Source: Defluviitaleaceae bacterium (GTDB taxonomy: Bacteria > Bacillota > Clostridia > Lachnospirales > WRAX01). From it: 33,991 nt of DNA. Shown piece by piece: positions 3,365-33,627 of the stretch. A program made the translations under genes and the position numbers. Every line of letters starts with the position of its first letter. Within the stretch, counting starts at the first letter, position 1. The notes under the pieces were generated by a model. That model ran no database searches, was not told the DNA's origin, and was given only the letters and a program-made list of their open reading frames with translations. The stretch is taken from positions 1 through 33,991 of the forward strand of contig WQSI01000004.1 in assembly GCA_009787945.1 (NCBI GenBank), read 5' to 3'.

Positions 3365-4858
3365 TTAGTCAATTATGAAGTTTCCGCTTTGAACTCTACC
3401 GAAGTGAACTTGACCATTCTGTGACCACCTTGTAACATTGTGACCTGTGCGAGTTCCTAATCCCCAGTGTCCATACGTCCAATTCCCTTGGTACACATTA
3501 CCATGCCGCCAATACGTACCCCAACCGATTGCATTATTCCACCAGTGTGTACCCCCACCAATTGCATTATTATTTATATAATTCCCCTGGGACACATTAC
3601 CAGTATGCCACCAGAATGTTGCCGTTCCGTTGGGAAGGTCGTTTGTAAACCAACCCTGAATTATATTTCCATTATGCCACCAATATGTACCCCAGCCAGA
3701 CCTTAGTCCTTCTCCAGCAAAGCCACCAGAATAGATGTCCCCATTGATTAACCAAACTGTGCCTTGTCCATTTAACCAATTGTTAACAAAGTCACCTTGA
3801 GCAATATTTCCACTGGCTCTCCAATGGGTTCCCCGTGTACGCCAACCATTATTCCAACTACCTTGAAAAACACTGCCGTCTGGCCACCACATAGTGCCCC
3901 ATCCGTGAGGCTGAAGATTAACAAAGCTTCCCACATAAACAGCCCCGGAATCCCACCGCAGCGTGATGCTATCAGATGCTGGCCACTGGGGAGCAGGGCC
4001 TGGGCGAGCAGGTGGCTGTTGTTGAGGGCGCGAAGGTGCTGGACCTGGATGCGATGGTTGTGTTACGCTGGGTGGGGTTGGCTGCGTTGGTTGTGTCACA
4101 TGGGGCGGGGTTGGTTGGGATGTGTGTGGAGGTGTGGGACGCACTGACGAACCAGTATTTGTCTGACCTCTAACAACATTATTATAAATGTCCCTTGTAA
4201 CTTCGCTAGTGATAGTTGACACTATTGCTGTGGCTATTGTCTTACCAAGCCATTTTCCAACAGGTATCAACCAAGCAAGCGTGGGTTGCATTGGAGGATA
4301 ATAAGTAATTTCCCACCCCCCAAAGAATCCTCCGTATATAGCTTTGGAAACGCCCTCTGGCCACGAATAACTTAAAAACGTCACTTCCTCACCAACTGGC
4401 ACATATGAAGGAACATGAATGTAATAGGCAATTTCATAAATTCCGCCAAGCATGCCTAGGTTTGAAATAGCGTTGAAGGCGTTTCGTGTTTCTTCAATAG
4501 TGTTAAAATACATAACCAGATTGCCCAGTCCTTGGAAATATCCCGAAGCGTTTACGGAGCTTGCCAAGATGCTACCGTCAGTGGATGTGTTTACTAGCAA
4601 AATCCTAGATTGAAAAACATCATACAGATGTGTCGTACCCGTGTGAGTGTTTGTGACTGCGTAGGACATGCCATCGAGTTCAATAAAAACAAATCTGGTG
4701 TTGGTAGAATTAATGATGGATTGTATGTCATATACATTCCCATTGATTAGAAATCGACCATTGTCGTTTACAACCTGACCAGAAATCGGGGTAATATAGA
4801 TAGTTGATAATGAGATAATGAGTACCAAACTCATCATGCGTTTGAGAATTTTTCTCAC
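3365..4858 (-). CDS. Secreted protein with Pro/Gln-rich linker and C-terminal Trp-rich MORN-like repeats
   Basis: 497 aa; signal peptide-like N-terminus (MRKILKRMMSLVLIISLSTIYITPISG), PTPPHTSQPTPPHVTQPTQPTPP linker, repeated G-x-G-T-x-W-W/YxGxW units typical of MORN repeats. Confidence 0.8.
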   Translation of the reverse strand: MRKILKRMMSLVLIISLSTIYITPISGQVVNDNGRFLINGNVYDIQSIINSTNTRFVFIELDGMSYAVTNTHTGTTHLYDVFQSRILLVNTSTDGSILASSVNASGYFQGLGNLVMYFNTIEETRNAFNAISNLGMLGGIYEIAYYIHVPSYVPVGEEVTFLSYSWPEGVSKAIYGGFFGGWEITYYPPMQPTLAWLIPVGKWLGKTIATAIVSTITSEVTRDIYNNVVRGQTNTGSSVRPTPPHTSQPTPPHVTQPTQPTPPSVTQPSHPGPAPSRPQQQPPARPGPAPQWPASDSITLRWDSGAVYVGSFVNLQPHGWGTMWWPDGSVFQGSWNNGWRTRGTHWRASGNIAQGDFVNNWLNGQGTVWLINGDIYSGGFAGEGLRSGWGTYWWHNGNIIQGWFTNDLPNGTATFWWHTGNVSQGNYINNNAIGGGTHWWNNAIGWGTYWRHGNVYQGNWTYGHWGLGTRTGHNVTRWSQNGQVHFGRVQSGNFIID

Positions 4859-4894
4859 AAAAATAACCTCCTTCGGCTCTAAAAATATAGTTGA

Positions 4895-5004
4895 CTAATA
4901 AGCCTAAGTGAGGTAAAATTGTCACTAGGCTTATAAAGGCCGTACGGGACACGCAGGTCGCGAAACTTTTGCTGAGTAGACGACTTGCGTGTCCTTTTTG
5001 CCTT
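4895..5004 (-). ncRNA. Candidate structured 5' leader RNA (element A) of the MORN protein gene
   Basis: Minus strand: AAGGC-[long hairpin GGACACGCAAGTCG...CGACCTGCGTGTCC]-GGCCTT followed by hairpin TAAGCCTAGTGA-caattttacc-TCACTTAGGCTTA; same architecture as 33359-33462. Confidence 0.6.
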
Positions 5005-5013
5005 TGTAAATCA

Positions 5014-5042
5014 ATTATAAGTCAACCCGCTATTTTTGTCAA
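5014..5042 (-). promoter_or_regulatory. Perfect consensus sigma-A promoter TTGACA-17-TATAAT driving element A
   Basis: Reverse complement reads TTGACA AAAATAGCGGGTTGACT TATAAT. Confidence 0.85.
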
Positions 5043-12249: not shown

Positions 12250-12286
12250 AACTATTCCTCCCATTGCTACACAATCTTTTATAAAT

Positions 12287-12367
12287 ATTATACACCCAGA
12301 CCCAAACCCCGTCAATAATTTTCGCCAAAATAGTCTTGACAAGCCCGTGATTTGGCGGTATAATTAA
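12287..12367. promoter_or_regulatory. Divergent-promoter cassette, copy 1 (minus: TTGACG-17-TATAAT; plus: TTGACA-17-TATAAT)
   Basis: Plus promoter -35 12336-12341/-10 12359-12364; minus promoter -35 12310-12315/-10 12287-12292; about 90% identical in inverted orientation to 33486-33566. Confidence 0.85.
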
Positions 12368-12402
12368 CATAAGGTAACTATATATAACTTTACACAACAC
12401 CC

Positions 12403-12497
12403 CGTAGGGGCGCATATTATGCGCCCGTTGTCCGATAAAGTAATGCTAATGCAGAGTACGTTTGTCCAACAGTGGGCGCATAATATGCGCCCCTACG
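12403..12497. repeat. MITE-like palindromic repeat, copy 1
   Basis: CGTAGGGGCGCATATTATGCGCCCG...GGGCGCATAATATGCGCCCCTACG terminal inverted repeats. Confidence 0.85.
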
Positions 12498-23679: not shown

Positions 23680-23772
23680 GTAGGGGCGCATATTATGCGC
23701 CCGCCGTCCGATAAACACACTGTTGAATAAAAATACGTTTACAATGCAAAAGGCGCATAATATGCGCCCCTG
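23680..23772. repeat. MITE-like palindromic repeat, copy 2
   Basis: GTAGGGGCGCATATTATGCGCCCG...GGCGCATAATATGCGCCCCTGC. Confidence 0.85.
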
Positions 23773-25955: not shown

Positions 25956-25992
25956 TTTTATGATTTTGCCTTTAGAAATTTTAAACACATCC
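25956..25992. repeat. 37-bp direct repeat, copy 1 (gene 3'-end remnant)
   Basis: TTTTATGATTTTGCCTTTAGAAATTTTAAACACATCC identical to 26141-26177. Confidence 0.9.
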
Positions 25993-26010
25993 TTAGGCAT
26001 CATCATCCAC

Positions 26011-26105
26011 CGTAGGGGCGCATATTATGCGCCCGTTGCTGGACAAACGTATTCTACATCACATTACCTTTGTCGGACAACAGGCGCATAATATGCGCCC
26101 CTACG
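26011..26105. repeat. MITE-like palindromic repeat, copy 3
   Basis: CGTAGGGGCGCATATTATGCGCCCG...GGCGCATAATATGCGCCCCTACG. Confidence 0.85.
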
Positions 26106-26134: not shown

Positions 26135-26770
26135 TTATATTTTTATGATTTTGCCTTTAGAAATTTTAAACACATCCCCAATGACCGTAATGTCATCACC
26201 TTCTATACGAAGGGCACTTTCTTCGCAACCTGCATACACGTCCAAATCATTTGATAATGTTATAAATTTGGTTTCGTTTTCCAATTCTTTTTCTACTGCG
26301 TGGGGCGTGAACATTAGATTATCGAGGGCAAGACCATCATAAACTTTGTCGTAATCGTTGTAGGTGAATTTTGCACCCATATTCATGCCTCCTGCACTTC
26401 CTCCCATTATTACAGGGGCAGAGCTTTGGCCAATGGCTTCTTGCAGCCCATATTCTTCTATAAACTCCCTTAGCCCTATCTCTTTGCCGCCATGCAGGAG
26501 TATTGCAGACGCATTTTTAATAAGGTCAGCCGCTTCATTCTTATTCACGCGATAGTCAATGGAGTGGTACTCCTGAAAAACAACCCCTGCAGGCTCAAAC
26601 CAAACATCTTTAACAAAAGCCATTATGCTATCGCTTCCTGGGGCATCATCTGGAGCGGTGCTAATTGCTACTAAAGACTTTTTGCCTACAAGCTCTATAT
26701 TTAGCATATCCGCAAGCTTTTGAGGTATGGTTTTGGTGAACCAACCAAAATAATAATGTATTTTTTTCAT
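26135..26770 (-). CDS. Peptidase E-like (S51 family) protein
   Basis: 211 aa; ILLHGGKEIGLREF, APVIMGGSAGGMNMG nucleophile-elbow-like motif. Confidence 0.75.
   Translation of the reverse strand: MKKIHYYFGWFTKTIPQKLADMLNIELVGKKSLVAISTAPDDAPGSDSIMAFVKDVWFEPAGVVFQEYHSIDYRVNKNEAADLIKNASAILLHGGKEIGLREFIEEYGLQEAIGQSSAPVIMGGSAGGMNMGAKFTYNDYDKVYDGLALDNLMFTPHAVEKELENETKFITLSNDLDVYAGCEESALRIEGDDITVIGDVFKISKGKIIKI
26141..26177. repeat. 37-bp direct repeat, copy 2 (within 3' end of the peptidase E-like gene)
   Basis: Identical to 25956-25992. Confidence 0.9.
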
Positions 26771-33034: not shown

Positions 33035-33319
33035 CTAATCTTTATCCACAAGCCAATCACCCCAATCAGGGGAATTTTCATCCCTCTTTTTGCCACAAGT
33101 CTTACATTTTTTAGTAATACCTATTTTTCCTCCGCAGAATTTACATTCCTCAAGACATTTTTTGCCAAATTCGCAACTCCCAGCAGGAAAATCTTTATCG
33201 TGATACTGCTCCTCGAACTTATTACAAGAGCTGCATATAATCCTTTTGCAGTGCCTACAATAAACACCTTTATCAGCAATTTTGGCACTTTTTCCACAAT
33301 AATCACAACTTCTTGACAT
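33035..33319 (-). CDS. Small multi-Cys zinc-finger/ribbon protein
   Basis: 94 aa; CDYCGK, CRHCKRIICSSC, CKFCGGKIGITKKCKTCGKK; RBS GGAGG. Confidence 0.75.
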   Translation of the reverse strand: MSRSCDYCGKSAKIADKGVYCRHCKRIICSSCNKFEEQYHDKDFPAGSCEFGKKCLEECKFCGGKIGITKKCKTCGKKRDENSPDWGDWLVDKD

Positions 33320-33358
33320 AAAAAATCCTCCTTCTGCCCTTTAGGGGCTTGACAAAAG

Positions 33359-33462
33359 AGGCTACAGTGGTTAGAATTATCACTGAGCCTGTTTGGCTTT
33401 GTAGACACGTTGGGCGGGTTGTTTGGTAGACTTTGCCGCCCAACGTGTTCTTTTAATGCCAA
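33359..33462 (-). ncRNA. Candidate structured 5' leader RNA (element B) of the zinc-ribbon gene
   Basis: Minus strand: TTGGC-[GAACACGTTGGGCGG...CCCGCCCAACGTGTC]-GCCAA then AGGCTCAGTG-ataattctaac-CACTGTAGCCT; same architecture as 4895-5004. Confidence 0.6.
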
Positions 33463-33485
33463 CCCGCATATTTTGCGGGATTGTG

Positions 33486-33566
33486 TTAATTATAACGCCA
33501 AAGCAGGGGCTTGTCAAGGCTATTTTAGTAAAAATTATTGACGGTGTTTGGGTCTGGGTGTATAAT
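33486..33566. promoter_or_regulatory. Divergent-promoter cassette, copy 2 (minus TTGACA-17-TATAAT; plus TTGACG-17-TATAAT)
   Basis: Minus -35 33512-33517/-10 33489-33494; plus -35 33538-33543/-10 33561-33566; inverted near-copy of 12287-12367. Confidence 0.85.
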
Positions 33567-33627
33567 TGTTAGTGGACGAACCCCTATGGGGCTTTTATAA
33601 GGATATAAGTTTGAGAGGAATTAAAAT

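Follow-up and report, generated by a model that had tools for sequence, protein, structure and literature searches.

The stretch of Defluviitaleaceae DNA analysed here (33,991 nt, referred to as the window) contains two members of a family of structured 5' leaders. From their sequences, each is probably a modular leader that bears its own antisense RNA gene and places the downstream gene under cis-antisense control. Two promoters face each other across the leader, and both of its hairpins show compensating base changes. A T-tract is present on the antisense strand only, one apical loop is hypervariable, and the module recurs in many copies.

Architecture of element A

Element A is located at the left end of the window and is read on the minus strand. 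It extends a few bases past position 4895, to 4891, and the unit from promoter to start codon covers 4855–5042. The forward sigma-A promoter matches the consensus at 12 of 12 positions (TTGACA 5042–5037, a 17-nt spacer, TATAAT 5019–5014), placing the predicted mRNA start at about 5007. The leader opens with an outer stem (AAAGGC 5005–5000, GCCTTT 4940–4935) that encloses an A-run (4999–4995) and the first hairpin, H1 (4947–4994). The H1 arms, GGACACGCAAGTCG (4994–4981) and CGACCTGCGTGTCC (4960–4947), pair with one A·C mismatch and carry the hypervariable apical loop. The second hairpin, H2 (4899–4933), is formed by TAAGCCTAGTGA (4933–4922) and TCACTTAGGCTTA (4911–4899) with one bulged T. It is followed by the Shine-Dalgarno sequence AGGAGG (4872–4867) and a GTG start codon at 4858 (4855–4872 together). 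The leader folds at −50.4 kcal/mol, compared to −31.9 ± 3.3 kcal/mol for dinucleotide shuffles (z = −5.6, 0 of 200 shuffles).

The initial annotation had described the perfect promoter, the outer stem, both hairpins, the ribosome-binding site (RBS) and the start codon, all of which are confirmed here on the minus strand. It overlooked a convergent promoter inside H2. This reverse promoter (TTGACT-17-TAAAAT, plus strand, 4891–4919) lies within H2 and just past it, so that the H2 loop and 3' arm hold its −10 box and spacer. Read on the plus strand, the A-run becomes a T-tract past H1, and the two together form a predicted terminator. The promoter position and the T-tract predict an antisense RNA of ~75 nt (plus strand, 4926–5003), complementary to the H2 5' arm, the linker and H1 of the leader.

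The gene downstream of element A (minus strand, 3365–4858) encodes a 497-residue MORN-repeat protein. The product matches solved MORN structures (E 9e-15), with the Pfam MORN match remaining below threshold, and its N-terminus resembles a signal peptide by eye.

A family of leaders restricted to one lineage

A blastn search of the same genome identified a second copy of element A with 79% identity. The leader is kept up to the RBS, and the coding regions that follow are unrelated. A third copy in this genome lies at the opposite end of the window, and the initial annotation's element B is most likely this second family member of the window (33349–33517). On the minus strand, element B comprises a forward promoter (TTGACA-17-TATAAT, 33489–33517) and a leader (33359–33462) with the outer stem (33462–33458/33397–33393), H1 (33448–33436/33417–33405) and H2 (33390–33381/33369–33359). 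A reverse promoter (TTGACA-17-TAGAAT, 33349–33377) and a predicted antisense RNA of ~73 nt (33384–33456) are found on the plus strand. The downstream gene encodes a 94-residue zinc-ribbon-like protein (minus strand, 33035–33319).

Covariance models were built from 12 copies and then from 44 copies, and detect ~140 sites in 8 of the 16 genomes of the taxonomic family. At E ≤ 1e-4, the query genome has 9 sites, two sister species have 75 and 11, and five further family members have 22, 12, 9, 1 and 1; with the looser 12-copy model, one sister genome yields 79 distinct sites. An order-wide search of 392 genomes returned the same 8 and none of the ~384 others, and a class-wide search of 388 genomes returned the query genome alone, both under stricter filters that may lose weak matches. 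No match to the element was found among plasmid and phage records by blastn, and two DNA patterns of the element had no exact match in viral contigs. The single viral-contig match, to a third pattern, sits inside an open reading frame (ORF) and was rejected as an instance of the element.

Several copies are located at contig ends (L085, L086 and L087, and the first bases of contigs C4, C13 and C38 of genome G012). The leader repeats probably break assemblies, and the real copy numbers are probably higher.

The window also contains other repeats. A paired palindrome, GGGGCGCATATTATGCGCCC ... GGCGCATAATATGCGCCCC, occurs three times (12402–12497, 23680–23771 and 26010–26105) and resembles REP/BIME intergenic repeats. 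Two 91-nt inverted copies (12282–12372 and 33481–33571) are 88% alike and each have promoters in both directions; the latter overlaps the forward promoter of element B. An exact 37-nt direct repeat occurs at 25956–25992 and 26141–26177, 185 nt apart. A 57-nt inverted repeat with 79% complementarity (10943–10999/11052–11108) immediately follows a topoisomerase gene.

Pairing is maintained by compensatory changes

In an alignment of 44 distinct copies, itself fitted to the structure, 90% of cells in the H1 and H2 stems are paired and 24 of 25 pairs show double changes; the pattern is unchanged in a plain MAFFT alignment of 12 copies. None of 500 shuffles reaches the observed value on any of five pairing measures; because the copies share descent, this and the other shuffle statistics overstate significance. 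The outer stem was assessed in 79 copies without alignment: 5' arms score 15.3 with their own partners and 12.2 ± 0.22 with permuted ones. The proposal of an unrecognised structured leader is thus borne out by homologues and compensatory changes that reach far beyond one pair of copies.

The bulge in H2 is present in 53 of 82 copies and was rejected as a defining feature. Because of this bulge, an attC-like recombination hairpin was considered; it was rejected, as the GTTRRRY core is absent and the hairpin carries a promoter.

The opposite strand carries a promoter and a putative terminator

Read backwards, the H2 loop corresponds to a −10 box, and a −35 box lies immediately past the 3' arm at a spacing of 16–18 nt. 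At this spacing, a reverse promoter matching at least 10 of 12 consensus positions is present in 79 of 83 copies, compared to 0.8% of composition-matched shuffles. For the forward promoter, the same threshold is reached in 78 of 83 copies (3.9% of shuffles). The reverse hexamers stand out as conserved columns amid less conserved neighbours, despite their location in the H2 loop or outside the stem.

The sequence around H1 is similarly one-sided. At least four A residues occur within 8 nt on the 5' side of H1 in 76 of 83 copies, corresponding to a T-tract past H1 on the reverse strand, while at least four T residues within 8 nt on the forward 3' side occur in 0 of 83. Since the T-tract lies on the reverse side only, H1 looks like the terminator of a short reverse transcript, whose predicted median length is 76 nt (83 copies). 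An intrinsic terminator acting in the forward direction was rejected, as no T-tract follows H1 or H2. Independent support comes from the better pairing of H1 on the antisense strand: in 31 cases a pair is broken in the mRNA sense but can form G-U in the antisense, against 8 of the converse (26 to 8 for distinct stems); H2 mismatches have no strand bias. Two observations count against a terminator: the H1 loop is long for one, at ~20 nt, and a standard terminator scan does not detect H1. At the level of sequence, the leader nevertheless contains the two hallmarks of cis-antisense control, an internal promoter for the opposite transcript and a predicted terminator that would keep this transcript short. 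The predicted product is an antisense RNA of ~75 nt directed against the mRNA leader of the element itself.

A long, conserved and structured leader with a strong promoter before it and an RBS at its end could also belong to a ligand-binding riboswitch or another cis-acting metabolite leader. We consider this very unlikely. The conserved unpaired bases, namely the A-run, the H2 loop and the GTCAA after H2, are accounted for by the opposite-strand promoter hexamers and the T-tract. No conserved unpaired core resembling an aptamer or ligand-binding site was found, and H1 loops are near-random between close copies. The genes downstream share no pathway. The absence of a known riboswitch match, as initially claimed, holds: Rfam 15 covariance models give 0 matches at the gathering threshold across the whole window, and with relaxed filters element A and its second copy yield chance-level matches only (best E 4.4). 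The riboswitch-like framing of the leader is therefore not supported.

The dyad of H2 overlaps the reverse −10 box and spacer, and its half-site RRCCTNAG recurs. H2 could thus be a DNA operator, bound by a dimeric repressor over the reverse promoter in a protein-controlled promoter switch. The lack of strand bias in H2 mismatches and the presence of AbrB-like regulators among the downstream genes are in line with this. An operator leaves H1, the outer stem and the T-tract unexplained, however, and within one genome the H2 arms of different subtypes show compensated differences. In addition, the bulge makes the dyad asymmetric in those copies that have it. As the main function of the element, an operator appears improbable, but it could hold alongside antisense control.

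The H1 apical loop is hypervariable

We compared 44 pairs of closely similar copies. Identity is 95% in the H1 arms and 91% in H2, but only 56% in the H1 loops, compared to 45% for shuffled loops. The loop centre is enriched in the U-turn motif YUNR, which is linked to fast antisense pairing (PMC4485353), on the sense strand (40 vs 21 ± 3.5) as well as on the antisense strand (60 vs 46 ± 4.2). Such fast change of the loop in a conserved frame would be expected if the antisense RNAs must avoid paralogues. Variable loops would also result if constraint were relaxed in the loop alone, but the U-turn enrichment would not. In three copies (L084, L086 and L030) the loop looks inverted when compared with sister copies whose arms are identical, as though it flipped between the inverted arms.

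Hypervariable loops of ~20 nt on a constant scaffold, present in many copies of which some have no ORF, might also suggest trans-acting small RNAs, with the loops targeting other genes and the forward gene being incidental. Across 355 kb of sequence, however, the loops match only other element copies when up to 2 mismatches are allowed, and most copies are in register with an RBS and an ORF, making this role quite unlikely.

Downstream genes and genomic context

A Shine-Dalgarno sequence and a start codon follow the element in 58 of 79 copies, compared to 22% of random sites. About a quarter of the copies have no clear ORF with an RBS, which counts against control of a downstream gene. The products range from 60 to 500 residues and include MORN, AbrB/MazE-like, zinc-ribbon and copper-amine-oxidase-N-like secreted proteins, as well as many small ORFs of no known family. 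These genes are mutually unrelated, and the suggested tie between the leader and a MORN gene is not supported. In one sister genome (G001; L070, L077, L082 and L084), many small AbrB/MazE-like genes have a terminal CxxC motif and are each accompanied by a separate element copy.

Element A and its gene are missing beside rimO in both sister genomes, where other genes follow rimO, and are therefore accessory. This absence, the many copies, the restriction to one lineage and the joining of one leader to unrelated genes would fit a promoter-bearing mobile repeat, either MITE-like or a duplicating leader cassette, whose structure serves spreading and whose reverse transcript is non-regulatory. Features specific to RNA nevertheless appear to be under selection, including the compensatory pairs, the T-tract on one strand, the spacing of the reverse hexamers, and the RBS with its ORF. 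Many copies also diverge strongly in stem and loop, unlike products of recent transposition, and the phage and plasmid records contain no match. A purely mobile repeat is thus unlikely.

Proposed mechanism of control

In the cis-antisense model, the two strong promoters are convergent. The forward one would produce the mRNA, whose leader would fold into the outer stem with H1, followed by H2 and the RBS. The reverse promoter in H2 would produce a ~75-nt RNA with a 5' tail complementary to the H2 5' arm, followed by the H1 intrinsic terminator and its U-tract. Contact between this RNA and the mRNA is most likely made at the H1 apical loop, in a kissing interaction aided by the U-turn, and via the 5' tail of the antisense RNA. 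The antisense RNA would then zip along the leader, lowering expression. One possible route is the opening of H2, in which the freed 3' arm masks the Shine-Dalgarno sequence; another is cleavage of the exposed sense/antisense duplex. Because the loop sequence differs between copies, an antisense RNA is expected to control chiefly the gene behind its own leader. We infer expression of the antisense RNA, repression and masking, with masking being the least certain step.

The masking route was modelled with ViennaRNA. Blocking the antisense region lowers Shine-Dalgarno accessibility from 0.41 to 0.28 across 62 copies, with a fall of more than 0.2 in 21 copies and a rise in 4. For element A, the modelled value drops from 0.61 to 0.01. 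Native freed H2 arms mask better than shuffled arms (accessibility 0.26 vs 0.37; Wilcoxon p = 4e-5, uncorrected for the kinship of copies). Since the effect is absent from the modelled copies of two genomes, G012 and G005, masking is likely to be the route in some members only. Control may also run through duplex cleavage or through interference between the two promoters.

Comparison with known systems

In plasmid copy control, antisense RNAs recognise their targets via a tail or U-turn loops, and RNAII is 48 nt long (PMC4485353). The element resembles such RNAs (pMV158 RNAII/repB and the pT181 and pIP501 attenuators) in having a convergent promoter in the target leader and a predicted short antisense RNA composed of a 5' tail and an intrinsic-terminator hairpin. 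It differs in being chromosomal, with up to ~75–79 copies per genome on many unrelated genes and no replication gene; the target in copy control is a rep gene on a plasmid, and none of the downstream genes is rep. The leader further contains the outer stem and carries the antisense promoter within H2.

AapA/IsoA of Helicobacter pylori is a type I toxin-antitoxin system with several chromosomal copies, cis-overlapping antisense RNAs of ~80 nt, anti-Shine-Dalgarno masking and strict module specificity (PMC6733600). The element shares the multiple chromosomal copies and, as predicted features, a cis antisense RNA of similar length, masking and specificity. AapA genes encode toxic peptides of ~30 residues, while the genes behind the element are diverse (MORN, AbrB-like, zinc-ribbon and secreted stalk domains), and nothing in them points to a shared toxin. 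Judged from sequence, these products are not the small hydrophobic toxins of type I systems, and the predicted antisense RNA, unlike IsoA, overlaps the leader only.

The DonS family of Bacteroides consists of PUL-associated cis-antisense RNAs of 78–128 nt that repress a recurring gene class (PMC7366714). It is likewise a family of cis-antisense RNAs, but belongs to Bacteroidota, is tied to susC homologues, has no shared two-hairpin leader and is unrelated in lineage and sequence. ArrA of Bacillus subtilis is an antisense RNA over the dnaA 5' UTR that represses the gene, transcribed from a sigma-A promoter inside the leader region that faces the mRNA promoter (PMC12112137). The element has the same opposing arrangement, whereas ArrA is a long RNA (~270 or 667 nt) from a single locus with no conserved hairpin pair.

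By analogy, the element would work like plasmid antisense control and AapA/IsoA. It appears to be a member of neither, having no replication gene, toxin or sequence-family match. The open-access literature yielded analogues only and no description of the element; judged on that literature, its scale, its modularity and an antisense promoter located within a hairpin of the leader are new for cis-antisense-controlled leaders.

Antisense control of leaders has been described chiefly for plasmids, toxin loci and individual genes. Our data raise the possibility, which we put forward tentatively, that one RNA module has spread over dozens of unrelated chromosomal genes and is insulated by fast-changing loops, providing orthogonal sense/antisense switches in one cell. 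If so, a modular version with ~10 to 75 copies per genome on unrelated genes would show that antisense control can be reused chromosome-wide. The family would then constitute a natural collection for the study of antisense-pair specificity and a source of orthogonal RNA regulators.
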